Assembly (NCBI RefSeq): GCF_947387555.1
Contig: NZ_CANDNZ010000026.1
Coordinates: forward strand, 1-50,171
Direction: 5' to 3'
Source of the DNA: Thalassomonas sp. RHCl1
GTDB lineage: Bacteria > Pseudomonadota > Gammaproteobacteria > Enterobacterales > Alteromonadaceae
Length of the DNA: 50,171 bases
Part shown: one piece after another, positions 22,720-49,431 of the stretch
Numbering within the stretch: position 1 is the first letter of the stretch
How the letters are laid out: every line of letters begins with the position of its first letter
Made by a program: the position numbers and the translations under genes
The notes under the pieces: generated by a model
What the model was told of the DNA's origin: nothing
Seen by the model: the letters and a program-made list of their open reading frames with translations, nothing else
The model's database searches: none

Positions 22720-22737
22720 GGGCAGGCTTGCCTGCCC
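22720..22737. terminator. Hairpin between convergent genes
   Basis: GGGCAGGC (22720-22727) and GCCTGCCC (22730-22737) make an 8-bp GC stem followed by TTT on the plus strand. It lies after the GT4 stop and before the convergent Stf0 stop. Confidence 0.5.
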
Positions 22738-22764
22738 TTTCGCTGGGCGGGTATATCATTTCGC

Positions 22765-23598
22765 CTAAGTTTCTACAGGAAAAGCCCCCGACCAGTTGCC
22801 GACATAACCGGGAAAGTCAGCGCTCAGGGCCTGCATATCCATGTCCCGGTAACCAAGGCGTTGATAGTCTTCGTTAAACCGCTGCTGCCAGAGTTTACTT
22901 TCCTTGTTACCCTGCACATGGATATCCGGCAGGGTCACTGGAGTGCTGTCTTTGCTATCCGCCCCCAGAAAAGTGCTGATTTTATCAATCGTGCTCTCGG
23001 TATCTTTTGCCAGCTCTTCATAAGTGACAGATATGGTTTTGCTTTGTTGCTTGTTGAAATATTGCTGCCAACCCTCTTCCTGCCAGCGCAGATATTCACG
23101 ACATTTTAGAATATGCCGGTAAACATATTTAGGCTGCTGTTTTTTTTCGGCGCTGGCAACCCAGGAGTGGGTTTGCATCGAGCGCGACAATGACACTGCC
23201 TGGGCGGTTTTGTTATCCCGGGTAAGAAACACATAAGCCGTGGGGGCAAGTGCTTGCAGCATTTCAGGATGAGCAGCTTGTAGTGCCACACGGTGCGACC
23301 AGAATAATTTACAAGCAAAAATACCATTGGCTGATGTGCGCCACGTTTTCAACTGTTCCAGATATTCACGGCTGTTTTGTGCCCCGAACCGGCGGGCCAG
23401 TTGATGGCGGTAAGGCAGGTTCAGATATTCGGTGGGACCGCCGAGTACGCCGGTTTGCCACAACTTCAGGCCCAGCAGGGTGCTGCCGCTGCGTGGTGTG
23501 GTGGCAATAATATAAGTACTCAGCGGTTTGTCAGGCCGCCGGGCATAGTCATAATGTTTGCTATAAAGATCATTAAGATGTCCGATCGACATTATCAA
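22765..23598 (-). CDS. Stf0-family sulfotransferase
   Basis: The 277-aa enzyme has the 5'-phosphosulfate-binding loop TTPRSGSTLLG (about 32-42), then a Stf0-type start (GLKLWQTGVLGGPTEYLN) and the mid-protein FLTRDNKTAQAVSLSRSMQT for 3'-phosphate binding. Stf0 enzymes move sulfate from PAPS to a hydroxyl, classically on trehalose in mycobacteria, but many are in biosynthetic clusters. It is the last gene of the leftward arm, 52 bases after the acid ligase. It implies that the cluster's product is sulfated on a sugar or hydroxylated acyl group, which is inference. Confidence 0.88.
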   Translation of the reverse strand: MIMSIGHLNDLYSKHYDYARRPDKPLSTYIIATTPRSGSTLLGLKLWQTGVLGGPTEYLNLPYRHQLARRFGAQNSREYLEQLKTWRTSANGIFACKLFWSHRVALQAAHPEMLQALAPTAYVFLTRDNKTAQAVSLSRSMQTHSWVASAEKKQQPKYVYRHILKCREYLRWQEEGWQQYFNKQQSKTISVTYEELAKDTESTIDKISTFLGADSKDSTPVTLPDIHVQGNKESKLWQQRFNEDYQRLGYRDMDMQALSADFPGYVGNWSGAFPVET

Positions 23599-23650
23599 GT
23601 TTCCTGTGTATCTTTAGCGGCTGTTGTTATTTCCAAGCCTGAATCCAGAC

Positions 23651-25225: not shown

Positions 25226-25279
25226 TCGCCTGATCCCCTGTGCCCGTAGCGCAAGGGATGGCAGGTAAGAACAACGCCG

Positions 25280-26092
25280 CTAGTTCTGCACTTTTGCTGC
25301 TTTGGGTGCAAGCCTGCTGTTATTTTCAAAACCTGCCATCAGCCAGCCGCCAACGGGAGTGAGAATATCACGCGCCAATAACGCAAGGGCTTGGGGCTTA
25401 TTCTCCAGCAGTTCATTGTAGGCCTGGCGCAAGCGCCGGTTAATGTCGGGCGCCGCCGCTTCCAGGTGGTTGGCCAGGTGCTTGCCGCGGTGGGAAAAGG
25501 CCCCTTGTTGTTTGAGCAGCAAAGAAGAGAGCGGCGTAAACAGTGCCATACCCGCCATCAGTGCCTGATCTTCCGTCTTACTGCGGCAGAGCTCTGAAAC
25601 CAGGCTGGTGACCGATGAACGGATAATATTGATTTGCTGTGCCGGCGGGGCGTCCGGGCCGGTTTCAAGCAGGGTACTTGCCGCCTGCCTGGCCTGGGTA
25701 CTGTCTTGCCATTTATCGATAACCACTTCTCCCAGGGCTAAAGCGCTGACGATCCAGTCATTGCCGCTATGGCGGGCATTGGCCAGCAAGTCCTGGATAT
25801 GATCGGCGCCGGTCTCGATAACATCAAGGCAGTAACCCTGATGAGAAGCAATATGCTTGCGGATGCCAGCAAAATTTCTGCGCACCACCATAACATCTAT
25901 ATCTGAGTAGGGGGTCATTTTTCCTGTGGTGGCGGAGCCGTGGATGAGCAGCAAGATCACATCAGGGATTTGCGCTTGTATATAGTCACTGACCAGGGTT
26001 TTGAGTGCCTTAGCGGACAGGGATTTTTTCCGGCTTGCGCTGTCGGGGTAGATCTCCGCCAGCAGTGTCGCCATAGTGTCACTATGATGCAT
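25280..26092 (-). CDS. MNT-type nucleotidyltransferase-domain protein
   Basis: The 270-aa protein has a minimal nucleotidyltransferase domain: LLIHGSATTGKMTPYSDIDVMVV gives the GSx10DxD metal-binding pattern, followed by a helical C-terminal region (about 130-260). Such domains transfer NMP to small molecules (e.g. aminoglycosides) or proteins. Its start overlaps the stop of the S9-like gene by 11 bases, so it is translationally coupled and probably works on the same product or in self-protection. Substrate unknown. Confidence 0.8.
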   Translation of the reverse strand: MHHSDTMATLLAEIYPDSASRKKSLSAKALKTLVSDYIQAQIPDVILLLIHGSATTGKMTPYSDIDVMVVRRNFAGIRKHIASHQGYCLDVIETGADHIQDLLANARHSGNDWIVSALALGEVVIDKWQDSTQARQAASTLLETGPDAPPAQQINIIRSSVTSLVSELCRSKTEDQALMAGMALFTPLSSLLLKQQGAFSHRGKHLANHLEAAAPDINRRLRQAYNELLENKPQALALLARDILTPVGGWLMAGFENNSRLAPKAAKVQN

Positions 26093-27941
26093 TGACCAGC
26101 TCCTTTTGTGTTGTTGTCTGTACCTGGGGGCAAAGATCCCGGATAAAGCTATGCAAGCTGGTTAACAGGGTTTGCCAGCCTTCGTGGCTCTGGAAAATAT
26201 GACCTTCGTTTTGTACCGTGATATAACGGCAGTCAAGCTCTTCCGGCAGCGACATCATAAAATCAGAGCTGTGCTGTGACGGCGAAATCGGGTCCCTTTG
26301 ACCGTGCACCAGCAATAGCGGGGTATTGATTTGAGGGGCATAACTATCCAGGGCAGTAGTTAGCATGTTGTCTTCACTATAAAGGTGGCGCCACGGCCGC
26401 AGCGGGGGGATATCCGCGCTATAGACAGGATTAATGAAAGCGGCGCCGTCAATATCGTTATCGGCCAGGTAAGCCAGCGCAGGCAGACAGCCGAGACTGG
26501 CTGCGACTAGAAAAACCGGGCCGTTGCAGCGCTCACGCAGCTGTTTGATCGCTGTGTCTATCTCTGTTTGTGCTGCCCGGGCATAAATTGCTTGCTGAAC
26601 CCGCTTATCGCTGCCGCTCCCCAGTGCGCCGTTGCCGTTAAGGCCAAGCAACAAGCCGTGTTCACCTGTCAGAGCCTGAAGCTCTGAGCGGATGCTGTAG
26701 TGGTAAAAAAGCCGCTCCGGCCCGCTGGCAAAGAATCTGTGGGGGCCCATGACATAAAGTATTGCAAAATCAGGCGTTTTTTCATTTCCTGAAAAGACCA
26801 GCGAGTTAGCTGAATCAAGCTGTGCTTGTTCCTGAGGCTGTTTGTTATTCGGGGTTTGCCGGACTTGCTGCCGCTGTGGCAGACTTTCCCGAGATAAGGT
26901 CCAGCAGGGCGTACTTTCCAGAGTCTCAACCACCCGGATATAGTCCAGGTTATTGACCCAGCTTGCTTGGCAAGTCGCCTGGGCCTGGTCTAGGTAAAGG
27001 TAGCCGTCACGGCCCAGGCATTGGCTGCGCCGTGCCCCGGGTATTCTTGTATCCTTGCCGCTGATAATCACGTTTTGTCCGTTTGGCGACCAGGACATCA
27101 GGTCAACTTCCAATGAAGGGTCACTCAGGCGCTGTCTGTGGCCGTTTTCATCAATCAGGTAGAGGCCGGATACCGTATCTAATTCGCCAAGTAGAGCGAT
27201 GTTTTGGTTATCAAGCACCCGGCAGTTGATTTGCAGCTCGGCAATACCTACTCCGGCCACGTCGTCGAAAAACGTTTTATTGTCCTTGAGGCGCAGCAGG
27301 GTAAAGCGGCATTTTCCCTTGATTGGGCAATCCCCTAGTGCCAGGAAAAGCCCGGTTTGTTTTGTGCCTTTTAAAGAGATCTTGTCAATATCCCGGCCTT
27401 CAAAGGGATAGCGGTAAATTTCTTCGCCATCAGCTGTGACAACCAGTAAGTGATCCATTTCTTTCTTTGCCAGGTAAACTGCGTCACCGATAGCGGCAAG
27501 CGCGAGAATATCCCGGCTCACCAGTTGCGGTTGTTTTTCCTGTAGGCTATCTAGGGAGGGGCACAGGTATAGGTTCTCCCTAGATAGCACCAGCAAAGCG
27601 CCGTTATCATCGTATACCAACTGGCTGACGGGTTTGGAGAAGCTGTGTGTTTTTAACCTGCCCTGCAGATCTGACTCATGCACATCTAAAAACTGCGATA
27701 CCGCCAGCCGCGCACCATCCCGGTGCCAGGCCGTTAAGGTACCGTCAGCGGTTGGGATCAGCTTGGGGCTGCGCCATAAATTGCTCCGGGTGGTTTTGGT
27801 ATTGAGGAAACACTGGCTTTCCATCTTTCCCTGCGGTGACCAGCCGACGACAACTTCTGCCCAGGCCTGAGCACAGGGGGAGCAAGAGAGCGCCAGGTAA
27901 AACGGTAACTCCGGGCTGCTTTGTCGGGAAGTGCTAGCCAC
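26082..27941 (-). CDS. S9-like two-domain hydrolase (propeller + alpha/beta hydrolase)
   Basis: The 619-aa protein has an N-terminal strand-repeat region typical of prolyl-oligopeptidase propellers (about 30-360; 'LMSWSPNGQNVIISGKD') and a C-terminal alpha/beta hydrolase. The triad is S482 in AASLG, D550 in HGQRDP and H581 in NEGHIF. The nucleophile elbow is AxSxG instead of the usual GxSxG. The start is GTG, supported by GGGGAG seven bases upstream, and overlaps the glycosyltransferase stop by eight bases. It is a candidate maturation peptidase, esterase or acyltransferase for the cluster product; none is proven. Confidence 0.78.
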   Translation of the reverse strand: MASTSRQSSPELPFYLALSCSPCAQAWAEVVVGWSPQGKMESQCFLNTKTTRSNLWRSPKLIPTADGTLTAWHRDGARLAVSQFLDVHESDLQGRLKTHSFSKPVSQLVYDDNGALLVLSRENLYLCPSLDSLQEKQPQLVSRDILALAAIGDAVYLAKKEMDHLLVVTADGEEIYRYPFEGRDIDKISLKGTKQTGLFLALGDCPIKGKCRFTLLRLKDNKTFFDDVAGVGIAELQINCRVLDNQNIALLGELDTVSGLYLIDENGHRQRLSDPSLEVDLMSWSPNGQNVIISGKDTRIPGARRSQCLGRDGYLYLDQAQATCQASWVNNLDYIRVVETLESTPCWTLSRESLPQRQQVRQTPNNKQPQEQAQLDSANSLVFSGNEKTPDFAILYVMGPHRFFASGPERLFYHYSIRSELQALTGEHGLLLGLNGNGALGSGSDKRVQQAIYARAAQTEIDTAIKQLRERCNGPVFLVAASLGCLPALAYLADNDIDGAAFINPVYSADIPPLRPWRHLYSEDNMLTTALDSYAPQINTPLLLVHGQRDPISPSQHSSDFMMSLPEELDCRYITVQNEGHIFQSHEGWQTLLTSLHSFIRDLCPQVQTTTQKELVNAS

Positions 27942-29118
27942 AACTTTGCTCCCCTTGTCCGGTAACCAGGTTTTCGATCAGCGCTACCGCAGCCGATGCC
28001 GGCGGCAGTTGGTAGATTTCGTCGGCTATTTTTTCAGCCGTCTCTCTAAAGCTATTGTCGGCCAGGACCTGGAGAATCCTGTCCCGGATATTGTCAACAT
28101 TGACATCTCCCGGGGCAATCATGCGCCCGGCACCGGTGCGCTCGCAGGCTTGTGCATTGCGCATCTGAACGGCGCCGCCGCGCGGGATCACGATCAGCGG
28201 CAGGCCGTGGGCAAGCGCCGATACGGTTGAGCCGCAACCGCCATGGCACACCACAGCGTCACAGTGGGGCAGCAGTTGTTCATGGGGAATATAGCGCTCA
28301 ATATGAACATTCTCGCCATGACTGCCCAGGGCCGCCGGATCCAGGTTCTCGCCGACAGTGATCACCAGGTTGACTCCTTTGCCGGCCAGGCCGTTAATAA
28401 TATCGAGATAGATATCCGGGGCGGTATTATAGGTGGCAACCGTACCAAAGGTAACGTGGACAACCGGGCCGTCGGGCATGGCGCTCAACCAGGCGGGGGC
28501 CGCCGACGGTTCAAGTTTTTCCGGCACCGCCGGCTGGATGGAAAAGGCGGTCTCAAGCGACAGGCCAAAAGGGGTTTGTAACATAGGCGGACAGGGATCG
28601 AGATATAAAGTCTTGAATACGCCGCCGTTGGCAGGCGGAGTTACCCCGGATTCGAGCCAGAATTCATTTAAGGCATTCTCCAGGCGTTCAAGCTGAAAGG
28701 CCGCCCGCATCGGCGACGGCCAGCCGACGGCAACATTGGGCAGGCCAAGCAGGTGGCCGGCAAGGGGGGCCGCATATTCGCCTTCTTCATGTAATAACAC
28801 ATCCGCCTGCCATTCTTGTGCGACTTCCATCAGGGGTTTTAGCATGGCCCGGGGGGCTATCTGGGAAAACATCCGCGCCGCTTTTTGATCCGGGCGCAGC
28901 ACTTCCTGGTTCGGCATCGGCTCATCGGCGGCAGCGATCAGGTCGTCCATGTCCATACCGGCGGCGACGGCTTTAAAGCCATCGCCGTTAATTTCCCCGT
29001 GAAAGCCGGGGGCAATGGCAAAAAGAATTTCATGGCCGGCCGCCGCCAGGGCTTTGACCGTGGGCAGCATAGGGTGATAATGGCCTAAAGCCGGGATGCT
29101 GGAACAGAGAATTTTCAT
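27934..29118 (-). CDS. GT1-family glycosyltransferase (macrolide/UGT type)
   Basis: The 394-aa GT-B enzyme opens MKILCSSIPALGHYHPMLPTVKALAAAGHEILFA and has the C-terminal sugar-nucleotide site with CHGGCGSTVSALAHGLPLIVIPRGGAVQMRNAQ, as in EryCIII/UGT-like natural-product glycosyltransferases. It transfers a sugar, often a deoxysugar or hexose, to a small-molecule or peptide acceptor. It is second in the leftward arm, 53 bases after the flavin hydroxylase. The gene has neither sugar-biosynthesis partners nor an activator nearby, so a common sugar nucleotide is likely. Confidence 0.88.
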   Translation of the reverse strand: MKILCSSIPALGHYHPMLPTVKALAAAGHEILFAIAPGFHGEINGDGFKAVAAGMDMDDLIAAADEPMPNQEVLRPDQKAARMFSQIAPRAMLKPLMEVAQEWQADVLLHEEGEYAAPLAGHLLGLPNVAVGWPSPMRAAFQLERLENALNEFWLESGVTPPANGGVFKTLYLDPCPPMLQTPFGLSLETAFSIQPAVPEKLEPSAAPAWLSAMPDGPVVHVTFGTVATYNTAPDIYLDIINGLAGKGVNLVITVGENLDPAALGSHGENVHIERYIPHEQLLPHCDAVVCHGGCGSTVSALAHGLPLIVIPRGGAVQMRNAQACERTGAGRMIAPGDVNVDNIRDRILQVLADNSFRETAEKIADEIYQLPPASAAVALIENLVTGQGEQSCG

Positions 29119-29171
29119 GATTGTCTTCCTTTTGTTCTTTCCTTTGAAATAAGCGTGTCAGCGGGCTGAAA

Positions 29172-30650
29172 TTACACGGCTTGTGTGCTGTTAACTATTG
29201 ACGCCGCTGCCGCTGTCGGTACCGGTACGGGCTGTTCGCTGATAAGCTGGTCGATGATTCCCCTGAACTCCTGCCAGGGGGCTTCGCGGAAATTATGTCC
29301 GGCAAGGATCATCGAGGCGCCGGCGAAAAACTGCTCATATTGCAGCTGGCGTCCGGCAAATTCACTGCCTACCAGATCCCAGATCAGGCGTACCAGCTTT
29401 AAGCGCTCACCGGCATCTATGTTTGGTGTGGTCCAATAGTTATTAAACAACGCCGACATTTGCGGATCCTGAAAAATAGAATGATCCGCCGGCAGGTTAA
29501 AAGCACCGCCGCCAAGCAGGGTACGCAGCTCAGCGATAAACTTGCTGTAATGCTCTACGCTCCAGTTCAGGGCGGCATACATCATCCTGCGGTTATAACC
29601 CATATAGCCGTTGGCCCAGCTTTCTCCCGCCTGGATTTGCCCGGCGATCATGCCGGATAAGGCGGCTTCCTGGCCCGCCAAACGGCCCAGGGTCTCGCGT
29701 ATAACCGGGATCTCTTCAAGATTGTTGGCGCTTACCAGGCGCTCTGCCAGGCCGAGTATAAAGCCGAGTTTGCTCTGGACCCGGACATTGGACTGGTGAT
29801 TGCCGTATACATGAGCCGGGGTGTTGATATAAATAGCGCGTGCCAGCTGCGGATCGTTATGGACGAAGACCCGATCCCACGGGATAAAGACATCGTCGAA
29901 AATCAGCACGGAGTCGGTTTCGTCGAATCTTGTGCTTAAGGGGGCGTCCCAGTGATGTTTTACCGTGTTTTCATAGGGGCGGCGCGCCCACATCGACAGG
30001 CCGGGGGTATTACAGGGCAGTGAAAAGGTAATGGCTTCTGCTTTGTGCTCGGGAGCCAGGGGAATAATATTACCGACCCAGATCTCATCGGCAAGAATGG
30101 CGCCTGTTGCCAGCATCTTCATGCCACGCACGATCACTCCGTCATCACGCTCGGCCACTACCTGGCAACTTGGCGAAGAAATATTCGGCCGCTGGTAGAA
30201 CTCGGGATCCCGGCTGGTTTGCGGCGGCACCACGGCATGGGCGAGAAAAATGTCTTTTTGCCGTAAGAAATCGTAATAGCGGCTGATATTGTCGGCATAA
30301 GGGCCAAACATTTGTGGTGCCGTAGCCATTCCGGTGATAAAGCTGGAAACATAATCAAGAGATCTGCCCATAAGGCCGTGGTGGTAAGACGCCAGTGTAC
30401 GGTGTGCCGAGGTGCGAAATTCCAGATCTTCACGTGTTCGTGCCATCTTGTAATAAGCACTGAAAACTTCGCCGTTTTCGGTATAAGAAAGTCCGGCGTC
30501 TGCCCGTTTTTTATCATAGATATCGGCAATGGTGCGTGCACCATGGCGAAAGGCGTCATGTTGGCTGACATCCTCCACTTTTTCATTGCCGATATAGACA
30601 GTTCGTCCATCACGCAGACCCGAAAGATACTGCTCGCCAGATTTCAGCAT
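29172..30650 (-). CDS. HpaB/PvcC-family FADH2-dependent hydroxylase
   Basis: The roughly 490-aa enzyme matches the 4-hydroxyphenylacetate 3-hydroxylase / PvcC / 4-BUDH family: RTSAHRTLASYHHGLMGRSLDYVSSFITGM, the flavin-binding region GMKMLATGAILADEIWVGNI, and 'AGQEAALSGMIAGQIQAGE' in the helical C-terminal half. I place the start at the ATG at 30650, which has GGGGAG eight to nine bases upstream, while the longer frame needs TTG. Family members hydroxylate phenols, including peptide-like or CoA-bound substrates, with FADH2 supplied by a separate reductase that is absent here. First gene of the leftward arm, divergent from the precursor gene. Confidence 0.88.
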   Translation of the reverse strand: MLKSGEQYLSGLRDGRTVYIGNEKVEDVSQHDAFRHGARTIADIYDKKRADAGLSYTENGEVFSAYYKMARTREDLEFRTSAHRTLASYHHGLMGRSLDYVSSFITGMATAPQMFGPYADNISRYYDFLRQKDIFLAHAVVPPQTSRDPEFYQRPNISSPSCQVVAERDDGVIVRGMKMLATGAILADEIWVGNIIPLAPEHKAEAITFSLPCNTPGLSMWARRPYENTVKHHWDAPLSTRFDETDSVLIFDDVFIPWDRVFVHNDPQLARAIYINTPAHVYGNHQSNVRVQSKLGFILGLAERLVSANNLEEIPVIRETLGRLAGQEAALSGMIAGQIQAGESWANGYMGYNRRMMYAALNWSVEHYSKFIAELRTLLGGGAFNLPADHSIFQDPQMSALFNNYWTTPNIDAGERLKLVRLIWDLVGSEFAGRQLQYEQFFAGASMILAGHNFREAPWQEFRGIIDQLISEQPVPVPTAAAASIVNSTQAV

Positions 30651-30987
30651 AAATCTACTCCCCATTAAAATCACAGACAATCGCTGTTGTCCGATATTTC
30701 CCTATCAAATCCATATTTAACTTATGGTTATTAGTACGAAAAATAAGGTTTTCACCTTAATTAATGTAACAATTTGGTTACATTTGTTTTTGGTTTCTAA
30801 GAGCCATTATGAGCACTAAACTCGGTTTGGCTTTATAAATCAAGCCTTAAAGATTAAAAAAATGAAAATAAATATTTTTGATAAAAAGCGATTGACAGCA
30901 TGTACGAAGTGTATAGGATGTTAATTGCATGTTACGCATGCGTTTTTAAATTAAGTAGAAAAATCAATATAAATAAGGAGATTAAAT
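30651..30987. promoter_or_regulatory. Divergent promoter region of the peptide cluster
   Basis: For the rightward arm, TTGACA at 30892-30897 and TAGGAT at 30914-30919 (16-base spacer) make a plausible sigma70 promoter, about 70 bases before the precursor ATG. ACGCATGCGT at 30934-30943 is a perfect palindrome just downstream, and GCATG occurs again at 30927-30931; this could be an operator. No dedicated regulator gene lies in the cluster. Confidence 0.5.
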
Positions 30988-31101
30988 ATGTCTTATCAAA
31001 CAGCTGAAGTAATGGAAGAGTTGAAGGACTTCGCACTTGAGTCTAGCGACTCTTCTGAAAACCAAAACGGTGCAGAAGCTGGTTGTCTGTCTTGCTCTTA
31101 A
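30988..31101 (+). CDS. 37-codon RiPP precursor peptide candidate
   Basis: This short gene encodes 37 aa: a 20-aa acidic helix-prone start (MSYQTAEVMEELKDFALESS) followed by a Ser/Asn/Gly-rich stretch and the ending GAEAGCLSCS. It has an ideal ribosome site (AAGGAG at 30975-30980, seven bases before the ATG) and its own promoter-like elements. The two Cys (33 and 36) at the extreme C-terminus are the only ones and are the obvious modification site; N-terminal part would be the leader. It is followed by an attenuator and by modification genes including an MNIO enzyme, the standard layout of a RiPP operon. No processing protease site (GG) is clear, though N-G-A-E-A-G precedes the Cys. Confidence 0.8.
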   Translation: MSYQTAEVMEELKDFALESSDSSENQNGAEAGCLSCS

Positions 31102-31121
31102 TAGCAAACTAGGCAGAACCT

Positions 31122-31178
31122 AAAGGTAAGTGAGTGTTGTTTTACCTTTTGGTATGACTTCGCTCACTTTATTGATTT
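31122..31178 (+). terminator. Attenuator between precursor and modification genes
   Basis: Two overlapping hairpins can form: AAAGGTAA (31122-31129) with TTACCTTT (31142-31149), and AAGTGAG (31128-31134) with CTCACTT (31163-31169). The two share bases 31128-31129, so they compete. The second is followed by TATTGATTTTTATGTTTT. This would give much precursor mRNA and less readthrough into the enzymes, which is typical of RiPP operons. Confidence 0.55.
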
Positions 31179-31253
31179 TTATGTTTTACTTAATTTCTAA
31201 TGGATAAGAGACCAGGCTTGGCCGCCTAAGGCAAGCAGGGGTTGGGAGGGACC

Positions 31254-32069
31254 ATGACCAGGTTAGCTGACTTTGAGCAGTCCGTGCTCACCATTCTTTC
31301 TTCAAATCTTCAAGAGCAGGATAAAATTCCCCAGATACGTACCTTGATGAGGGAGGCACTTACCGGGCCTGAGTTTGTCATGTCCTGTATAGAGCGTGCC
31401 CTGGGCCATTTCGAACAGGCACCGGATCTGAAACCGCAGCCGCCGCTGCTGGTGTCACTGGACCAACAGTTTGCCGCGCACCTTATTTATTGGCCGCCGC
31501 ACCATAAAAACAGTCCGCATATGCACTCCACCTGGGGGGTTACCGGGGTTTTCCATAATGAAATGGTGTTTGAAACCTATGACAATGCCGGCGATCTCGA
31601 ACATCCAGAGCTGACGGTGGATAACCATATCGAAGCCGTGAAGGGAGAAACCGGGTATTTGTTGCCCTCGTGCATCCATAATGTCGCCAATGAAAGCGAC
31701 AAACCCTCGGCAAGCCTGCATCTGTTCGGTACCGATGATATGAATCGTCCGGCAGAGTGCACTACCGTATGGTTCGGCGATGCCACGCGTATGCCGGGAG
31801 AGTTGCGTCCCCGGGCGATGGCCATTTTTACCGATATTTTACTCGGCATCGACGGCGAGGAAGCTGAAGGCCTGATGACCCGGGTTTTTGAACTTGCCGG
31901 TAATAAGACCAAGTTACGTCTTGTCCAGGGACTTTCCGGACGAAATATCGCGCTCAGCTACCGTCTCAGTGTTGCCCTTGAGCAAGCGCTTGAAGGGGCC
32001 GACCGGGAGCGCCTGGCAGCGATCAATAATAAATTATCCCAGCAGGTAGCCAGCCTTGAGCAAGCCTAA
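31254..32069 (+). CDS. Cysteine-dioxygenase-like cupin
   Basis: The 271-aa protein has a central cupin matching cysteine dioxygenase: H89-M90-H91 in SPHMHSTWGVTGVF, an E/Y segment (NEMVFETYD), and H142 in SCIHNVANESDKPSASLHLFG, which parallels the 'ISHRVENVS...VSLHLY' of the enzyme. These three His are the Fe(II) ligands. A C-terminal helical extension of about 80 aa is not part of that fold. Cysteine dioxygenases oxidise a thiol to a sulfinate; here the Cys of the precursor, or a cysteine-derived building block, is the natural candidate. Start is the ATG at 31254 with GGAGGG upstream (the longer frame needs TTG). It overlaps the next gene by 14 bases. Confidence 0.82.
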   Translation: MTRLADFEQSVLTILSSNLQEQDKIPQIRTLMREALTGPEFVMSCIERALGHFEQAPDLKPQPPLLVSLDQQFAAHLIYWPPHHKNSPHMHSTWGVTGVFHNEMVFETYDNAGDLEHPELTVDNHIEAVKGETGYLLPSCIHNVANESDKPSASLHLFGTDDMNRPAECTTVWFGDATRMPGELRPRAMAIFTDILLGIDGEEAEGLMTRVFELAGNKTKLRLVQGLSGRNIALSYRLSVALEQALEGADRERLAAINNKLSQQVASLEQA

Positions 32070-32892
32070 TGATTATATGACTGCCGCTTTTCAGGCAGCG
32101 CTCGCCGATATCGCCACCAACGAGCAAAAAGCGAAACGTTATCTCGGACAGTGCGGCAGCGAGCTGCTTCCCGAGCAGCACCAAGCCTGTAAAGAAAGTT
32201 TAGCCGCCCTGTCGCCAACGGCGCGTAAACGCGTGACCTTGTTGGCTTCTTTGTTATCCGAGCGCCGCTTTAAGCGGGTAGCCAATCTTTTACCTGCCTC
32301 CAGAGAAATGCTGGGGGATAATTTCAGCCATCCGTGGCAGAGCTATCAGCAGAGTGCGCCGCCGGGCATGCCCAGTGCAACCGAAGAAGCGGTATCTTAT
32401 GCCAATTTTCTGCAGAAATCCGCTCGGGAAAACAGCCTGCTTAAAGATGTTTTACGCTATGAAGCCGGTCTTAATGAAGTATCCCGCAGACTGCTTCACA
32501 GGGATGAAAAAAGTGATATGCAAATGCAGGTACGGCCGCTGGCTCTCAGGGATTGTGTCAGCCTGTGCCCTTATGTGCTGGTGGAAACTTTCAGCCATGA
32601 TGTGATCACGGCAGTCAAGCAGCTCAGGGCCGGGGAAAGTGTTGCCAGTGAGCAGCAAACCAGTCAGTCGGTCATTTTCAGACCCAAAGAAGAAAGCGGG
32701 CTGGCGGTGGATGTTTCGATTATTCCAAACAAGCTGGCAAGCGTACTTGGCCGGGCATATAAACCGGCCCCGGTGGCGGCCCTGGTGCGCGGGGAAGCTG
32801 CAGAAGTGCAGGCCAGCCTGATGCCTATGCTCGACTATTTAATGCGTGCCGGTGTTTTAAGGCTGAGCCCGTCTATGGTGCTGGTCACCTGA
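32056..32892 (+). CDS. Putative MNIO partner / recognition protein
   Basis: The 278-aa protein has an N-terminal helical half with RRFKRVANLLPASREMLGDNFSHPWQSYQQ and SATEEAVSYANFLQKSARENSLLKDVLRYEAGLNEV, which resembles the DUF2063/TglI-like partner subunits that accompany DUF692 oxidases. A C-terminal alpha/beta stretch (about 155-278, ending in a small winged-helix-like segment) could be the RRE that binds the leader. It starts at TTG (32056) within the previous gene, or possibly ATG at 32077. It is the natural partner for the MNIO enzyme at 33579 even though two genes separate them. Family assignment is from pattern only. Confidence 0.6.
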   Translation: MSKPNDYMTAAFQAALADIATNEQKAKRYLGQCGSELLPEQHQACKESLAALSPTARKRVTLLASLLSERRFKRVANLLPASREMLGDNFSHPWQSYQQSAPPGMPSATEEAVSYANFLQKSARENSLLKDVLRYEAGLNEVSRRLLHRDEKSDMQMQVRPLALRDCVSLCPYVLVETFSHDVITAVKQLRAGESVASEQQTSQSVIFRPKEESGLAVDVSIIPNKLASVLGRAYKPAPVAALVRGEAAEVQASLMPMLDYLMRAGVLRLSPSMVLVT

Positions 32893-32973
32893 CGGCGAAG
32901 ATAACATGTGCTTTAAGTCAGCACCATCAATGAGTTTAATCTGTTAGTAATACACATATAGGGAGAGTTTATT

Positions 32974-33402
32974 TTGGAAGGTTACCGGATCAGCACCAAG
33001 CTTGAGGAAATGGATTTGTCTTTTATCCATGGATTTTTAACGGAAAGTCCCTGGGCCAAAGGCATATCCCGTGAGGCGGTAGAAGAAGCGATCAAGCATT
33101 CGTTATGTTTCGCCGTTTTTACCGATGACGGAGAACAAATTGGTTTCGGACGGGCAATTTCCGACTATACCACCTTCGCCTTTCTCGGCGACGGTTTTAT
33201 CAAGGAAGAGCACCGCGGCACAGGACTGAGTAAGTGGGTGATGCAGGAGATGACCAATCACCCGAAATTGCAGGGGGTAAGGCGTTCTTTGATCGCCACC
33301 GTTGAAGCTCACGGCCTGTATGAAAAATTTGGTTTTAAAGCCATCGCTAAGCCGGAGTATCTGATCGAGAAGTGGAATTGGCAGGCTTATAAGCAGTCGT
33401 AA
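32974..33402 (+). CDS. GNAT-family acetyltransferase
   Basis: The 142-aa protein has the GNAT fold: FAVFTDDGEQIGFGRAISDYTTFAFLGDGFIKEEHRGTGLSKWVMQEM shows the beta4 and the acetyl-CoA loop (EEHRGTGLSKWV), then a late beta strand (RRSLIATVEAHGLYEKFGFKAI). Start is TTG, with GGGAG eight bases upstream. GNAT enzymes acetylate amines, so N-acetylation of the peptide or of an amino sugar is plausible. It lies between the two halves of the MNIO system, 81 bases after the previous gene. Confidence 0.85.
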   Translation: MEGYRISTKLEEMDLSFIHGFLTESPWAKGISREAVEEAIKHSLCFAVFTDDGEQIGFGRAISDYTTFAFLGDGFIKEEHRGTGLSKWVMQEMTNHPKLQGVRRSLIATVEAHGLYEKFGFKAIAKPEYLIEKWNWQAYKQS

Positions 33403-33456
33403 CTTTTTTGCCGAGTCTTGGCTTAAGGAAAAAATGCCGGGAGCCAAGGGATCGGC

Positions 33457-33483
33457 GGTGTGCTTGCTGCGGGCTTGCACACC
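33457..33483 (+). repeat. Hairpin between GNAT and MNIO genes
   Basis: GGTGTGC (33457-33463) pairs with GCACACC (33477-33483), followed by ACTTTATTT. It could be a weak terminator or an mRNA stabilising stem in the 176-base gap. Confidence 0.4.
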
Positions 33484-33578
33484 ACTTTATTTGGGACTTG
33501 CCCGTTATTGATCGCCACCCGGGGCCGACAACAGGCAAGTCTTAACATGGACATAGATGAATCAACCGGAGGCTGTTG

Positions 33579-34436
33579 ATGCAACCTAAATTCGATAAGG
33601 CCCGCCTGCCCATGCTGGGGGTGGGACTTAGTTTCAGAACTGAGATCGCACAGGAGATAGTTGAGCAGATTGACTCGTTCGACTTTCTTGAGTTGATTGT
33701 TGAAACCGCCTTTGCCGGTATCTTGCCGGATGACTTTTACGAGCAGGTGGTAGGCCGGGTGCCGGTAACCGCCCACGGGGTCAGTGCTTCTTTGGGCTCA
33801 CTTGATGAGGCCCGCATCGATGACGGCCATCTGGAGCGGGTTAAGGCTGAGCTGGCCCGGTTGCGTTGTCCCTGGTTCAGCGAACATCTGGCGTTTACCA
33901 AGGCACAGCAAGTGGACGCAGGACAATTACTGCCGCTGCAGCGCAGCCAGGCAACGGCGGATTTTGTCGCACAAAAAATCCGCCATATGGCCGAGGTGGT
34001 GGGCATTCCCGTGCTGATTGAAAACATTGCTTATTATTTCAATATTCCCGGGGCCGAAATGGACGAGGCCGAGTTCCTTACCCGGGTGATCGAGGCGGCC
34101 GATTGCGGTTTGTTACTCGATATCAATAACCTTTACGCCAATTGCCTTAACCATGACCTGGATCCCATAGCTTTTATCGATAGCCTGCCCGCCGACAGGG
34201 TAGTGGAAATTCACCTGGCCGGCGGCGAGGAAATCGAAGACGTCTATATCGATACCCACGGCCATGCGGTTAACCAGGCAGTATTCGACTTATTTGCTTA
34301 TGCCTGCCGCACGAAAGCGCCGAAAGCCGTAGTGCTGGAACGAGAAAAAAATATTCCGTCTATTGACGAACTTATCGAAGAAATTCAGGCGATTAAAAGT
34401 GTCTGGCAACAAAGCCGTATGGCTATTACCGCGTAA
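33579..34436 (+). CDS. DUF692 / MNIO multinuclear non-heme iron oxidase
   Basis: The 285-aa TIM-barrel protein shows the family residues: GVGLSFR at 14-20, H66 in VTAHGVSASLG, SEH at 101-103 in WFSEHLAF, E148 in VLIENIAYYF, DINNLY at 181-186, E210/H212 in VVEIHLAG, and D225/H227 in IDTHGHA. These are the metal ligands of MNIO (MbnB, TglH) enzymes, which use two or three irons to remodel Cys or other residues of RiPP precursors. TglH with TglI removes the beta-carbon of a C-terminal Cys; MbnB/MbnC makes oxazolone-thioamide. The start is the ATG at 33579, with GGAGG six bases before it; the earlier TTG is not needed. Confidence 0.92.
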   Translation: MQPKFDKARLPMLGVGLSFRTEIAQEIVEQIDSFDFLELIVETAFAGILPDDFYEQVVGRVPVTAHGVSASLGSLDEARIDDGHLERVKAELARLRCPWFSEHLAFTKAQQVDAGQLLPLQRSQATADFVAQKIRHMAEVVGIPVLIENIAYYFNIPGAEMDEAEFLTRVIEAADCGLLLDINNLYANCLNHDLDPIAFIDSLPADRVVEIHLAGGEEIEDVYIDTHGHAVNQAVFDLFAYACRTKAPKAVVLEREKNIPSIDELIEEIQAIKSVWQQSRMAITA

Positions 34437-34469
34437 TTTTAAACAGGCATTTTGCCAAAGGAGTTAGAG

Positions 34470-36032
34470 ATGACTGTTGCAGAAAATAATTTTACCCTAC
34501 CCGGGAGCGGGGATCGCTATAACCTGATTGCCGATCTTCTGGTCAAACATGCCGACGGCGGCGCTTCCCCTGTGCCTGCCCTGTATTTTAACGATCAGGT
34601 GATCAGCTATGGCGCACTTTATCAAAGTGTCGGCATTGCCCGTGCGCTGCTGATGGACCAGGGGGTTATGCGCGGGGACAGGGTGGCGCTGGTGCTGCCG
34701 GATACCCCGGCTTATATTTATATTTTCCTTGCCGCCATTTCGCTGGGGGCGATACCGGTAGGCATTAACCCGAATGAGAATGCCTCCGATATCCCCGCGC
34801 TGCTAAAACATATAGGCGCCAAATGTCTGGTGGTTTCTGTCGAGAATGCTTCGCTGAGACAAAGCCTGGCTCAGTCCGAGATTGCAAGTGTGCTGGTTGA
34901 AGTGGACCCTCTGTTTGAACAGGCGACTAAGGCTTTTGTCGATAATTCAGCTCCTTGCTGTGACTATGAAGTCATGGCCGCCAACGATGTGTTATACCTG
35001 ACCTTCAGCTCGGGCACCACAGGCAGGCCCAAAGCGGTGACCCGCCGTCATCTGGATATTCTCAACTGCGCACAAAGCGTGGATGCCGGGTTGATGGGGC
35101 TGACGCCAAAGGATACTGTGATGACGGTGACTAAACTGACTTTTGGTTATTCCCTGGTGGGCGGCTTGATGTTTAGCCTGCTTGCCGGTGCATCCCTGGT
35201 TGTTGCCGAAGAAAAAATGACGGTGGACAAGGTTATCGCTGCTGCCAAACGTTACCGCCCGAGTGTGCTGTTGGCACAGCCGCGGATTTTAACCGAGCTT
35301 AACCGCCACAGCGAAGCGGGGGAGCATGACTGGTATCGCTCGCTGCGTATGGTGATGTCTGCCGGGGATGTATTGTCGGCATCGGTGCGGGATAAGTGGA
35401 CTAACTTGACCGGCCTGTCGGTGACCGAAGGCTTCGGCTCGGTGGAAGTGGGGCACTTTTTTATTGCCGGTAACGGCGAAGATATGCCTCAGGGAGCTTT
35501 AGGCAAGGTGCTTGACGGTTATCAAGTACAGCTTATCGATGACGATGGCCGTGAGGTTAAGCAGGGGCAACAGGGGCGTTTGTGTATCCGCGGCAACAGT
35601 GTAACTACAGGTTACTGGAACGATCCCCAGCGGACCCGTGCGGCTTTTGAACAGAGCTGGTATGTCAGCGATGATGTTTTTACCGCATCCGGGGACTATT
35701 TATTTTATGCCGGACGCTGGGATCATATGATCAAAACCGGCTGCGGCGAATGGGTGAGCCCGGTGCGTATTGAAAATGTCATTCGCCGCGATGAGCGGGT
35801 AGAAGATTGTGCGGTCATGGAAGCAAGGGATGAAGACGGGGTATCAAGGGTTAAGGCCTTTATTGTGCCCGGTAATGGCAGTGACCCCAAGGAGCTGCAA
35901 GGGGGGATTCTCGATTTGATCGAATGTCAGTGGCCGCAGCTGGATCATATGCGGGTGCACCTGATGGAATTTGTTGAAGCTATTCCGCGCTCTGCCAATG
36001 GTAAAATAGTACGTCCGCGCGCCCGGCGCTAA
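34470..36032 (+). CDS. Second AMP-forming acid ligase
   Basis: The roughly 520-aa enzyme is an ANL acid ligase with LTFSSGTTGRPKAVTRRH (A3), VTEGFGSVEVGHF (A5), WYVSDDVFTASGDYLFYAGRWDHMIKTGCGEW (A7/A8) and the end PRSANGKIVRPRARR (catalytic Lys). It resembles the ligase of the leftward arm. I use the ATG at 34470, which has AAGGAG upstream, rather than an upstream TTG. It lies 33 bases after MNIO and 12 before PhyH. Two acid ligases suggest two acyl groups, or that one substrate is processed twice. Acceptor unknown; neither arm has a carrier protein. Confidence 0.88.
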   Translation: MTVAENNFTLPGSGDRYNLIADLLVKHADGGASPVPALYFNDQVISYGALYQSVGIARALLMDQGVMRGDRVALVLPDTPAYIYIFLAAISLGAIPVGINPNENASDIPALLKHIGAKCLVVSVENASLRQSLAQSEIASVLVEVDPLFEQATKAFVDNSAPCCDYEVMAANDVLYLTFSSGTTGRPKAVTRRHLDILNCAQSVDAGLMGLTPKDTVMTVTKLTFGYSLVGGLMFSLLAGASLVVAEEKMTVDKVIAAAKRYRPSVLLAQPRILTELNRHSEAGEHDWYRSLRMVMSAGDVLSASVRDKWTNLTGLSVTEGFGSVEVGHFFIAGNGEDMPQGALGKVLDGYQVQLIDDDGREVKQGQQGRLCIRGNSVTTGYWNDPQRTRAAFEQSWYVSDDVFTASGDYLFYAGRWDHMIKTGCGEWVSPVRIENVIRRDERVEDCAVMEARDEDGVSRVKAFIVPGNGSDPKELQGGILDLIECQWPQLDHMRVHLMEFVEAIPRSANGKIVRPRARR

Positions 36033-36044
36033 CAGGAGAACAAA

Positions 36045-36902
36045 ATGAGCATAAACCAACACGATCGTGACTTATACTGCCTGAAACAGGCCGGGTATAT
36101 CGTGCTGAAAGATTTCGTCGATATCGCACTGGTGGATAAAATTGAAAAAGCCTGTGTCGGCTTCGAGCTTGAGGTGGAAGCTTTCAGATCTGAGCAGGAG
36201 GTGATTTTATCTCACAGCTGGCCGCTGAGAACCACCCGCTGCCTTTATGCCGTCAGCCAGGAGCTTCAGGATTTGGTGATGCGCGAGCGTATCCAGAAAC
36301 TTGTTCACGGCTACCTGGATAAACCCGTACTGCGTGACAGTCTGATGCAAACCAATATGCCGGATCCGAGAAACGCCGAGCGTGGCCTGGACGGCGATAT
36401 CAGTTTCCACCGGGATACCTTGTGGCCGGACGGCGAGATAACCCCGAATTATTTACACGTTTTTTTGTTGTTGAACGATTTTACCCCGGAGCACGGGGCA
36501 ACCATAGTCGTGCCCGGCACCCACAGGGAAAAAGAACCGGGTTATTATTTTAAAAACAGCGATCCGCGTCCGCCGCAAAAAGGCATAGATTACCGGGTTT
36601 ATGAACAGAGTTATTTCCCGAGTACCACGCAACTGTTGGCGCCGCGCGGTTCGGTGATTTTGATGGATCCTATGATGATTCACTCCCAGGGTATCAATAT
36701 TGCTGATACCCCCAGACGGGTGATCAACACCACCTTCAGGGCCGCACAAACCGTGGGTAAGCCGCCGCTGCTTAATGCCAGGGCAATCGCCGAGCATACC
36801 GCCCGAGTGCCGATCCGACAGGATTTATTGTCCCTGCTTGAAGATACCGAAAGCCTGCCGTCGGAATATGGTCCGTTACGGGAGCTGGTGACCGAGGCAT
36901 AA
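36045..36902 (+). CDS. PhyH-family Fe(II)/2-oxoglutarate dioxygenase
   Basis: The 285-aa protein has the phytanoyl-CoA-hydroxylase fold: the Fe ligands H122 and D124 in SFHRDTLWPDG and H213 in MIHSQGI, and R225/R226 in TPRRVINTTFR for the 2-oxoglutarate. Family enzymes hydroxylate or halogenate fatty-acyl-CoA and natural products. It is coupled to the acid ligase (12 bases), so hydroxylation of an acyl-CoA formed by the ligase is attractive. Last rightward gene of the cluster. Substrate unproven. Confidence 0.88.
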   Translation: MSINQHDRDLYCLKQAGYIVLKDFVDIALVDKIEKACVGFELEVEAFRSEQEVILSHSWPLRTTRCLYAVSQELQDLVMRERIQKLVHGYLDKPVLRDSLMQTNMPDPRNAERGLDGDISFHRDTLWPDGEITPNYLHVFLLLNDFTPEHGATIVVPGTHREKEPGYYFKNSDPRPPQKGIDYRVYEQSYFPSTTQLLAPRGSVILMDPMMIHSQGINIADTPRRVINTTFRAAQTVGKPPLLNARAIAEHTARVPIRQDLLSLLEDTESLPSEYGPLRELVTEA

Positions 36903-36961
36903 AAGTATTAGCTCCGTTTTTCGGACTTTTTACTCACTTTTGCCAGAGCTCAATATAAAAA

Positions 36962-36990
36962 CGCCGGAGGCAGCTAAGCTTACTCCGGCG
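36962..36990 (-). terminator. Intrinsic terminator of the ABC transporter operon
   Basis: CGCCGGAG (36962-36969) pairs with CTCCGGCG (36983-36990). On the minus strand it is followed by TTTTTATATTG, a strong T-tract, so it ends the leftward permease gene. It also lies 60 bases after the rightward PhyH gene, where the plus-strand tail is weak. Confidence 0.8.
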
Positions 36991-37022
36991 CTCTTGGTTG
37001 TCGGCGTTTTGTCCGCTGAGCT

Positions 37023-38135
37023 TTATGCCATTTTAAGGTAGAATAAAAACAGGGCGTAAAACAGGCTCGGTAAAATAAAAAAGTTACGGTAAAACTTAGT
37101 GACGCTGACAATAGTAAGCAGCACACCTAAAGGTAACAGCACTAACATCCCCACGGAGAAATTTAAGCCAAAAGTGATGACTGAACCTGTAAGCACGGCA
37201 ATCACCATGGCCGGCAGCATATCAATAAGATAACGGCTGCGGTGCTGATTTAACAAACCGGCCAGGTAATGGGGATGCTTACGGTAAAACCTTTCATTAT
37301 CAAATTGATAAGAACCTATCACCAGGGCCAGTACCCAGCACACCAATATTTGGATAAAGCCGTTGGCGCCTAGCGCCATTTTATATTGCACATAGGCAAC
37401 CAAGCCCAGAAACAAGGCGCAAAAGTAAATACGACCGGTGAGATTGGTGGGGTTTTTCATGATGGCAATCCAGCGTATTTGCCAATACTGCTGCATACGC
37501 CAGGTCTGTTTGCCGATAAAGCGAAGGGGATCGAAAACCGCTTCCAGCAGCAATAAGGCTAAGACCCCGGTGTTGAGGGTAACGGCACTGATGTCATAGT
37601 GTTTTATTGTAAAATACAGCAGTACAGGCGCCAGGCATAGACTTAACCAGGGAACCCCTTTATTTTTTATACTGATCCAGGCAAGCACTATGGCCGAGAG
37701 GGCAAAGAGCGGGAAGTGCAGCTGATGGATGAAAGTTTGCCAATCAGGAATAAAGGTCACTAAAAACAGCGGTGCCAATAACGGGATATTGCCGGCGGCT
37801 AAGGTCAGCAAAAAGGTTGCCGTGTATCTGTGCCTGGCGGGGATCAGCAAACTGGCCATATAGGGTTGATAGCTTTGCGCCAAAATGGCTGTTTTCTGGA
37901 TCCTAAGTAGCAGATATAGCAGGATAAAGTAACCCCACTGGTACAAAATACGCTGCTCCGGCGGAGTTTGCATATCTGCTATCACACTTAAAGACACCAG
38001 GGCGGTGAGGATAGATGCCGGGATTGCCAGGTAAAGTATCATCATTAAAAAGCTAACTAGCTGGATCACCGATGCCAACATACGTTTTAATTCAAAATAA
38101 TAAATTTGCCCGCGCAGTTTAAAATAATGGCTCAT
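37023..38135 (-). CDS. ABC transporter permease
   Basis: The 370-aa protein has about eight to ten hydrophobic segments in a repeated layout and no ATPase motif. It starts MSHYFKLRGQIYYFELKRML and overlaps the ATPase gene by four bases, making a two-gene ABC-2/Ecs-like exporter. It ends at a terminator and is convergent with the peptide cluster, so it may be that cluster's exporter, or unrelated. Substrate unknown. Confidence 0.78.
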   Translation of the reverse strand: MSHYFKLRGQIYYFELKRMLASVIQLVSFLMMILYLAIPASILTALVSLSVIADMQTPPEQRILYQWGYFILLYLLLRIQKTAILAQSYQPYMASLLIPARHRYTATFLLTLAAGNIPLLAPLFLVTFIPDWQTFIHQLHFPLFALSAIVLAWISIKNKGVPWLSLCLAPVLLYFTIKHYDISAVTLNTGVLALLLLEAVFDPLRFIGKQTWRMQQYWQIRWIAIMKNPTNLTGRIYFCALFLGLVAYVQYKMALGANGFIQILVCWVLALVIGSYQFDNERFYRKHPHYLAGLLNQHRSRYLIDMLPAMVIAVLTGSVITFGLNFSVGMLVLLPLGVLLTIVSVTKFYRNFFILPSLFYALFLFYLKMA

Positions 38136-38746
38136 GATATGATGCTGTTGCCTTGATTTAATTCATTGAGAAAGACACTGCGGTAGTGTTCATTTTCGGT
38201 AAAGCTCTCTTCATGGCTGGTGACGATAATTTTCCCGGGGTAGCTGTCAAGATAGGTCAAAAGCCAGGTGCGACTTTGGTGATCTAAGCCGGTTGTCGGC
38301 TCGTCAAGCAGCAAATATTGCGGTTGATGTGCCAATGCCAGCAACAGTGAGATCTTCTTTAAATTGCCAAGTGATAAAGCAGAGACTTGTGTGGTTAACT
38401 GGGGAGCAAAACCTAAGTGTTCAATGAATTGCGTGGGAAACGGGCAAGCATGCTGCGAACAATGAAATTCAAGCAACTGTTGCGGCGTTAAGAAATCCGG
38501 CAGCATAATTTTATCCGATGATATCCCCAACTGGCGTTTGGCGGAGACTGAAGAAATGGGTTTATCATCTAAGGTTACTTTCCCCGAGCTGGCGATTTCC
38601 AGGCCTGCTGCCAACATCAACAAGGTGGTCTTACCGCTGCCGTTGGGGCCAATAATGCAGTAGCGTTGTTGATCAAATTGATAGCTTAATTGATTGATAA
38701 CCGAGTTTTTTTGATAAGACTTTGAAATTTCGTGAAGTAAAAGCAA
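38132..38746 (-). CDS. ABC transporter ATP-binding protein
   Basis: The 204-aa protein has Walker A GPNGSGKTTLL (34-44), a signature loop LSLGNLKK instead of canonical LSGGQ, Walker B YLLLDEPTTGLD and the H-loop TSHEE. It is small but complete, as in CcmA/Bcr-type exporters. It is the first gene of a two-gene operon with the permease (ATGA overlap). Confidence 0.88.
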   Translation of the reverse strand: MLLLHEISKSYQKNSVINQLSYQFDQQRYCIIGPNGSGKTTLLMLAAGLEIASSGKVTLDDKPISSVSAKRQLGISSDKIMLPDFLTPQQLLEFHCSQHACPFPTQFIEHLGFAPQLTTQVSALSLGNLKKISLLLALAHQPQYLLLDEPTTGLDHQSRTWLLTYLDSYPGKIIVTSHEESFTENEHYRSVFLNELNQGNSIIS

Positions 38747-39004
38747 GTGTTTTCCTTAACATTATATTAATAAATGTAATATGCAAAAAAACGTGGGTGG
38801 AAGCAACTTAAAATAAAAAGCAAAATACAGTAAGAGGTAGAGGAGAAATCGTTTGTTTCGAAAGTATCCGGTAAAGCCCTTTGGCGGGAGCAAGGCCACG
38901 AGAGTTCGGCTCCCGGCAGCAGAGATGACATCTCACAACCCTTGGAGTATATAAAGGTGAAGTTGAGAGTGATCTCGAGTGTACGATTTATAGCAGGAGG
39001 GGGA

Positions 39005-40601: not shown

Positions 40602-40668
40602 TGTAAAGGTCGATAGAAGTTCAGTAAGGGATATTGTTCGAGGCTGTACCTCGCTAGAGGAAGAGGTT

Positions 40669-40680
40669 GGGGGGGGGGGG
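40669..40680. repeat. 12-G homopolymer upstream of ccdA
   Basis: Twelve consecutive G on the plus strand (C on the ccdA coding strand) lie about 120 bases upstream of ccdA, between it and the ATPase stop at 40834. Such tracts slip during replication and can vary promoter spacing. Its presence is certain; a function is not. Confidence 0.85.
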
Positions 40681-40833
40681 ACAGATAATCTTTTTATAGT
40701 CACAAATTTTAAACCGGTCGAAATCGACCTGTTTAACGTCAGCAGGGCTCAGTTTAAAAACCAGGAGAAAATTATATGAATTAGCTCAGACCTAACCTGA
40801 CAACTTTCCTTGAAAAAAGAGGCTTACCATGTG

Positions 40834-43257: not shown

Positions 43258-43426
43258 CCAAGCTTCCCTGCAGATAGAAAAGTGATTACGGCCGTTTAGG
43301 CACTTATCTGCAAGTATAAGTCTGTAGTTCATATGCTTACAAACTGATCGGCTATTCTTGTAATGAAAAGAAACCAATACTTATTTAGGAACCTCTTCGA
43401 GAAGTTATTTTAAAAAGGAAAGGAAA

Positions 43427-49412: not shown

Positions 49413-49431
49413 AAAAACTATAGCCAAATTC

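Follow-up and report, generated by a model that had tools for sequence, protein, structure and literature searches.

The window analysed here, the entire 50,171-base contig (C26) of a 7.56-Mb Thalassomonas genome, holds a well-supported pathway for a ribosomally synthesised and post-translationally modified peptide (RiPP), with a multinuclear non-haem iron-dependent oxidative enzyme (MNIO, DUF692), a DUF2063-type partner protein and a 37-residue precursor. The data also support well its placement as a GCxxC-type MNIO pathway with a dedicated family 4 glycosyltransferase (GT4) and with tailoring genes that have so far been seen in Thalassomonas only; that all of this, including the unusual tailoring genes, forms one pathway is the reading that we hold to be probable. 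The pathway probably spans ~21507 to 36902, starting outside the stretch 30988-36902 given in an original prediction made from the DNA letters, whose core genes were confirmed and whose limits were not, the GT4 gene at 21507-22694 belonging with the cluster. The locus is also present in T. actiniarum (G061, on a 937,696-base contig), where the window's gene order is retained and nucleotide identity amounts to 96% across 29977-38922 and 91% across 20132-29976; a count of synonymous changes between the two left out three genes with gapped alignments (those for the nucleotidyltransferase, HpaB and LanM proteins described below).

The precursor gene (30988-31101, plus strand) encodes the 37-residue peptide MSYQTAEVMEELKDFALESSDSSENQNGAEAGCLSCS. 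It starts with the ATG at 30988, with AAGGAG 7 nt before it, and its only cysteines, Cys33 and Cys36, both lie within the final five residues, the C-terminus reading GCLSCS. Against a reference of 22 open reading frames (ORFs) around ribosomal protein L16, which were picked mechanically and of which a few may not be ribosomal, its codon adaptation index (CAI) was 0.784 (reference ORFs 0.57-0.80). Ten other genes of the window had values of 0.425-0.566, and none of their 352 37-codon windows attained 0.784, a value attained by 1 of 3000 open frames of a Markov null and by 1 of the 524 open windows of 37 codons that start with ATG in any frame, the latter taken to be the precursor ORF itself. 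The tiny gene with an ideal ribosome site and two C-terminal cysteines that had been predicted was thus borne out. By hydropathy the peptide has no Sec signal (best 11-residue value 0.04), and neither a Pfam match, DUF2282 nor an EGKCG motif was found in it.

The precursor is 100% identical in T. actiniarum, and so is the whole block 30833-31193, comprising a promoter candidate, the ORF and a hairpin, which at 361 nt ranks first in length among 2306 identical runs, ahead of one of 194 nt. There are no substitutions in the precursor between the species, and hence these two genomes provide no measure of protein-level selection. The hairpin (31121-31181, plus strand), 3' of the gene, was more stable than shuffled sequences by 4.7 standard deviations (minimum free energy -30.9 kcal/mol for 31098-31200, z -4.74), and is probably a 3'-end stabiliser or attenuator. 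The promoter candidate is sigma-70-like (TTGACA-16-TAGGAT; 30892-30919, plus strand) and lies within the identical run; promoter-like sites in the sequence counted were no more numerous than in shuffles (2 found versus 2.2 expected). Together, codon bias and hairpin suggest a real gene whose product is made in quantity. The precursor (P0001) and the partner (P0003) were not detected in two other genomes of the genus, P0001 being present in 2 of 4 genus genomes.

The MNIO (33579-34436, plus strand) matched PF05114 at 271 bits (cut-off 25). Alignment with 40 other MNIOs gave 31 columns that were at least 95% conserved, from which the window enzyme deviates at S18, Q121 and E256. Among the conserved His, Glu, Asp and Asn columns 15 of 16 are kept (H66, H103, E148, N149, E163, D181, N184, H212, D225, H227 and E254 being among the conserved residues), the exception being a D to E change at 256; the kept columns are judged to be putative metal ligands, and the earlier statement that all of the ligands are present agrees with 15 of these 16 columns. 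In the PDB, 3bww matched at E 4e-38 and 8hci, together with 8hi7 and 8hi8, more weakly at E 1e-27; 8hi7 is TglHI (PMC12452194). Outside the genus, the highest identity among the matches listed from 369 genomes of the class, at least 222 of them with an MNIO, was 42%. At E <= 1e-54 the 395 genomes of the family gave three matches, one each in the window's genome and in T. actiniarum and a third at a locus that has a GKCG peptide, the top identity outside the genus being 41%. A scan of genome contigs, which looks for six short peptide words and hence misses many relatives, returned at least seven loci at 32-39% identity.

The position of the enzyme was assessed in a FastTree phylogeny of 158 distinct MNIO ORFs, from which alignments of fewer than 200 columns were omitted, as were L019, which duplicates locus L065, and L061, the copy in T. 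actiniarum. The class-genome loci in this set are those among the matches listed (29 loci, 119 further places and, for one, an extended stretch), and the cupin loci L046-L060 do not belong to it. The window enzyme groups with L041 and L065 (support 0.88), and then with L039 and L038 (0.98). A small ORF encoding GCxxC within 400 nt upstream of the MNIO was present at 2 of the 158 loci, L065 and L041, both of which belong to the five-member clade that includes the window; some small ORF was present upstream of 150, and one with CxxC upstream of 21. The L065 and L041 peptides have no clear signal peptide (hydropathy 0.03 and 1.41). The L041 peptide had no match in plasmids at E <= 0.01, and the family of G324, the gammaproteobacterium carrying L065, contained no other member besides G324 itself. 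Because GCxxC recurs at these two related loci, Cys33 and Cys36 can with good reason be taken as the residues that would be changed; of the predicted RiPP pathway with remodelled cysteines, the pathway is well supported and the targets would follow from L065 and L041. Locus L065 (9653-12795) carries a compact run of GCxxC peptide, MNIO, partner and GT4 genes, the simplest version found. At L039 (955-6441) the MNIO occurs without a DUF2063-like partner, amid neighbours that, judged by eye from their motifs, may be genes of pyrroloquinoline quinone synthesis.

The GT4 gene (21507-22694, plus strand) provides a second connection to L065. There, the GT4 gene and the terminal part of the partner gene overlap, and when the GT4 product was searched against the whole genome of the window, a single match was obtained at E <= 0.001, at 21519-22472 (E 5e-30). 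Searched in turn at E <= 1e-15, the window enzyme had two matches in 239 genomes of the class, the enzyme itself and the one in G324, which lies at the GCxxC MNIO locus (E 1.8e-30). This reciprocal tie makes the GT4 part of the MNIO pathway and probably places the beginning of the pathway at ~21507. The nearest solved relatives of the enzyme are weak ones, BshA and a tetrahydrobiopterin glucosyltransferase.

The protein encoded at 32056-32892 (plus strand) is a DUF2063-related MNIO partner, similar to PME-type 2, a class whose published definition is structural (PMC12452194). No Pfam or NCBIfam family came near its cut-off, and PF09836 (PME-type 1) did not match at E <= 1. A hidden Markov model (HMM) built from the window and L065 partners was run against the 2645 ORFs of the MNIO loci and matched only the L065/L019 gene, L041:9903-10481 (E 1.8e-4), which directly follows an MNIO gene, and L038:10398-10925 (E 2.8e-4), the second gene downstream of one. 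The L041 protein itself gave a match to HvfC (E 5e-6, short of the cut-off for that family) and one to Pfam DUF2063 (0.008). When a profile of five partner sequences was compared with one of 26 DUF2063 partners, hhalign gave 94.2% (E 1.1e-7, score 56.1), compared to scores of 19.9 for the reversed profile and 16.2 for the best of 60 column shuffles; leaving out L041 and L038 still gave 80% (E 1.4e-5). On account of this profile match the protein is assigned as a DUF2063-type partner. Of the original label, DUF2063/TglI-like, the DUF2063 half appears right in substance, and a fold search, the only one bearing on the TglI half, gave no result. The partner itself (P0003) is scarce: plasmids gave no match at E <= 0.01, 196 genomes of the family gave two including its own, and 369 genomes of the class gave its own only.

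The cupin gene (31254-32069, plus strand) encodes a protein resembling the thiol dioxygenases 3-mercaptopropionate dioxygenase (3MDO) and cysteine dioxygenase (CDO), with a C-terminal extension of ~105 residues. It matched the 3MDO structure 3uss at E 1.9e-4, and the residues of its triad, His89, His91 and His142, are invariant with P0008 and L060. At what we take to be the position of the crosslinked Cys of CDO it has Gly, and Phe presumably stands in place of the conserved Tyr of 3MDO. The best relative found outside the genus is encoded on plasmids of two Streptomyces strains, in identical copies (28% identity over 145 residues, gapless), and the Streptomyces gene follows one for a 178-residue protein with 6 Cys, all within its last 24 residues. 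In 398 genomes of the phylum, the cupin (P0002) gave nine matches at E <= 0.001, its own and eight at E 1.3e-8 or weaker. On the plasmid of Streptomyces sp. NBC_01136 (L058:9377-11679), the 178-residue protein, the 347-residue cupin and a 236-residue protein are encoded in the same region, and Pfam matched none of the three at E <= 1; the annotated genes of this plasmid, the gene table of which is incomplete, include no MNIO.

The remaining genes of the plus-strand run, for a GNAT acetyl/acyltransferase (32974-33402; Pfam scan), an acyl-CoA ligase of the benzoate/anthranilate-CoA ligase type (34470-36032; Pfam and NCBIfam scans) and a PhyH-type Fe/2-oxoglutarate dioxygenase (36045-36902; Pfam, with HxD at residue 122 and a distal His assigned by eye), agree with the GNAT, acid ligase and PhyH genes that had been predicted along with the MNIO. 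A divergent operon on the minus strand (22765-30650), located between the GT4 and precursor genes, is probably also part of the pathway. Its first gene encodes an HpaB-type flavin-dependent phenol hydroxylase (29172-30650) that resembles 4-hydroxyphenylacetate hydroxylases, and is followed by genes for an EryCIII/MGT-type glycosyltransferase (27934-29118), an alpha/beta hydrolase (26082-27941), a nucleotidyltransferase-like protein (25280-26092), a second benzoate-CoA-ligase-like enzyme (23651-25225; 31% identical to the ligase at 34470) and an Stf0-type sulfotransferase (22765-23598); the HpaB, glycosyltransferase, nucleotidyltransferase and sulfotransferase proteins are putative members of the pathway. 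Both ligases resemble benzoate- and anthranilate-CoA ligases. The hydrolase has a weak prolyl-oligopeptidase match (Peptidase_S9, below the cut-off) and a very weak match to the Atxe2 isopeptidase, and is a possible candidate leader peptidase. In plasmids, PhyH and the hydrolase had no match at E <= 1e-6 and 1e-5, respectively, and HpaB matched 262 records at E <= 1e-20, none of which reached 60% identity.

Assembled into a scheme, the DUF2063-related partner would bind the acidic leader and present the C-terminal GCLSCS to the MNIO, which, from what is known of the family, would oxidise Cys33 and/or Cys36 with O2, producing a thiooxazole-type heterocycle or another four-electron Cys rearrangement. 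The cupin could act on the other cysteine thiol and PhyH could hydroxylate, and the aryl-CoA ligases could, together with GNAT, attach an aryl acid that HpaB may have hydroxylated, all as suggested by family membership; aryl acylation by ligase and GNAT together would fit these assignments. The dedicated GT4, for which the genetic association is the observed part, would add a sugar to the peptide or to an attached group, and a protease, possibly the hydrolase at 26082, would free the product. The most specific form of this scheme, in which the MNIO and the thiol-dioxygenase cupin, two non-haem iron enzymes that use O2 and differ in fold, split the two GCxxC cysteines between them (one rearranged, one of sulfinyl type) before an aryl-acid cap and glycosylation by a GT4 that would mark this type of RiPP are added, is offered tentatively and is more doubtful than probable. 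If it were true, the Streptomyces cupin beside its Cys-tailed protein would represent a second, MNIO-free user of peptidyl-cysteine oxidation.

A number of observations weigh against the reading of the locus as a GCxxC-type MNIO pathway with these tailoring steps. The clade of the window with L041 and L065 is suggestive rather than firm, as it involves long branches: by branch length among the 158 sequences, L039 ranks 1, L038 2, L065 4 and L041 50. The identity of the window MNIO to L065 and L041 is 34%, no closer than to bufferin-type enzymes (up to 40%). The original prediction had raised the question of homologous loci that keep the MNIO without such a peptide, and a GCxxC peptide lies upstream in two of the four other members of the clade (L065 and L041) and in neither L038, which is of the TIGR04222 type, nor L039. 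The motif alone is not rare, since a wider scan of 1500 nt on each side gave 12 GCxxC small ORFs, ten of them at nine loci of the DUF2063 type; these ten, which are not just upstream of the MNIO, are taken as chance frames. The relation of the partner to DUF2063 was not detected by blastp at E <= 1e-3, and its single sequence gave a non-significant 1.4% with hhalign. Structure prediction for it, including the half that might form a RiPP recognition element, reached a mean predicted local distance difference test (pLDDT) value of 36 with two sequences, and of 55 with a predicted template modelling (pTM) score of 0.56 with five, and a Foldseek search of this low-confidence model against the PDB gave 14 matches, the best at E 3.4 and none of them 3dee or 8hi7. 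The cupin remained below the cut-off of Pfam CDO_I (12.2 bits, cut-off 23; E 0.13), so that its earlier description as CDO-like stands through the relation to 3MDO and the three histidines and not through that family model. Its plasmid matches comprised five records, and of the three neighbourhoods viewed, those in Pseudomonas and Pseudanabaena showed no RiPP-like features. Finally, the full gene set was seen in two closely related Thalassomonas species only, neither a dedicated exporter nor a recognised leader peptidase was identified among the pathway genes, and the product and its chemistry are predictions from the genes.

Against this background, it is possible, if clearly short of probable, that the RiPP core is real and that the ligases, HpaB, sulfotransferase and hydrolase constitute a separate small-molecule pathway next to it. 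A blastp comparison of 15 window genes with the 2645 ORFs found, apart from MNIO hits, the GT4 at L065, ligase matches at three loci elsewhere and a single weak match to GT28, and hence no relatives of the ligases, HpaB, sulfotransferase or hydrolase at L065 or L041, which would be expected on such a separation. However, the ligase at 34470 and PhyH lie in the strand run of the MNIO with short gaps, and the minus-strand operon is enclosed by RiPP genes, with the GT4 beyond it, in an order kept in T. actiniarum.

An unlikely explanation is that the product is a metal-handling peptide following the logic of bufferins and captophorins, in which the MNIO would make copper-binding thiooxazoles and the other genes would add to a metallophore. 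The MNIO does score best against the BufB and HvfB models of NCBIfam (230 and 220 bits), bufferin- or GKCG-type peptides accompany its best BLAST matches, and the superfamily and the DUF2063-related partner are shared with these systems (BufB, HvfB, FonB), which are the closest by model score. These scores are nevertheless below the cut-offs of 310 and 360 bits, compared to 396 and 383 (BufB) for two control MNIOs beside bufferin-like peptides and 397 and 406 (HvfB) for two beside GKCG peptides. The window further differs in its large tailoring cluster and in the absence of a Sec signal, DUF2282 and EGKCG from the precursor and of Pfam DUF2063 from the partner. Membership in the bufferin or HvfB groups was rejected on the two equivalog cut-offs and the precursor features.

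Rather improbable is a carrier-peptide pathway resembling that of the pearlins, in which the peptide would serve repeatedly as a scaffold and one Cys would be rebuilt into a small, amino-acid-like product and cut off, with the ligases, GNAT and PhyH decorating it. The cysteines do sit at the extreme C-terminus, the Cys on which TglHI acts is C-terminal (PMC9016710), and the number of small-molecule tailoring genes is large for a peptide of 37 residues; an MNIO and partner acting on a C-terminal Cys would be common to this locus and the pearlin TglA/TglHI (3-thiaglutamate) system. On the other hand, no PEARL/LanB-type ligase was found in the 20 proteins scanned (21507-49297), the cysteines are encoded and not appended, and the strong codon bias suggests stoichiometric use. 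Identity as a pearlin was rejected because no PEARL occurs among these proteins.

A role of the 37-residue peptide, with Ser and Cys in its core, as substrate of the LanM enzyme in the same window (45962-49297) and not of the MNIO is very improbable, as LanM sits 15 kb away beside its own likely 66-residue precursor (49432-49632, by eye), on which ground it was set aside as the enzyme for this peptide, and as GCxxC peptides recur directly upstream of the MNIOs at L065 and L041. Just as improbable is that the precursor ORF is no gene and the conserved block a regulatory RNA, for which the equal conservation of the ORF, its upstream DNA and the hairpin and the lack of synonymous changes for a selection test would speak, and to which the ribosomal-protein-level CAI, the recurrence of GCxxC and the absence from the window of Rfam matches above gathering score are opposed.

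Among known systems, the GCxxC-type MNIO pathway proposed here can be compared, by published description, with adjamnio-7, in which signal-less CxxC precursors are reported for a small MNIO group, SSN cluster 7 (PMC12452194). A signal-less CxxC precursor and an MNIO of a small group are common to both, and the precursor type of the window may be the same and hence known in outline. According to that paper, the gene clusters of such small groups are larger, tailoring genes are present in many of them, and ten have PME-type 2 partners; its main text uses none of the terms cupin, PhyH, AMP-binding, acetyltransferase or glycosyl. The biphenomycin-like pbs pathway, as described in PMC12257519, likewise has a RiPP cluster in which a cupin accompanies an MNIO and its partner, its PbsQ being related to a JmjC-domain protein and hydroxylating Orn. 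The window differs from it in that its cupin is thiol-dioxygenase-like and in that no radical SAM enzyme occurs in the 20 proteins scanned. Among the papers listed from the mostly open-access literature searched, no description of the gene combination was found, as had been anticipated at the outset, with the qualification that signal-less CxxC precursors as such are published for adjamnio-7 (PMC12452194); a dedicated glycosyltransferase and a thiol-dioxygenase-like cupin together with an MNIO were not found described in the literature searched. Few MNIO reactions are known and their sulfur chemistry is unusual, and a small, apparently highly expressed substrate with two Cys would lend itself to simple reconstitution and mass spectrometry. 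The combination of GCxxC and GT4 could also serve as a mining rule for further members.

Two more MNIO loci are present in the same genome, at G000:C1:1100284-1101081 (L002) and G000:C3:437675-438520 (L003), with Cys-rich peptides and DUF2063-type partners (ORFs, HMM). Elsewhere in the window, the class II lanthipeptide synthetase LanM is encoded on the minus strand, its likely precursor (minus strand, ending in ...AMGSAICSPCPPRHCF) being just upstream, and the stretch 45656-49957 is found in T. actiniarum at 90.7% nucleotide identity. The stretch 40610-45655, for which the compared piece of T. actiniarum gave no match, holds two plus-strand genes, for an S-Me-THD-family protein (43427-44596) and for a 161-residue protein with weak papain/C39-like peptidase matches and the C-terminus ...GCKCSCTIL (44864-45349).

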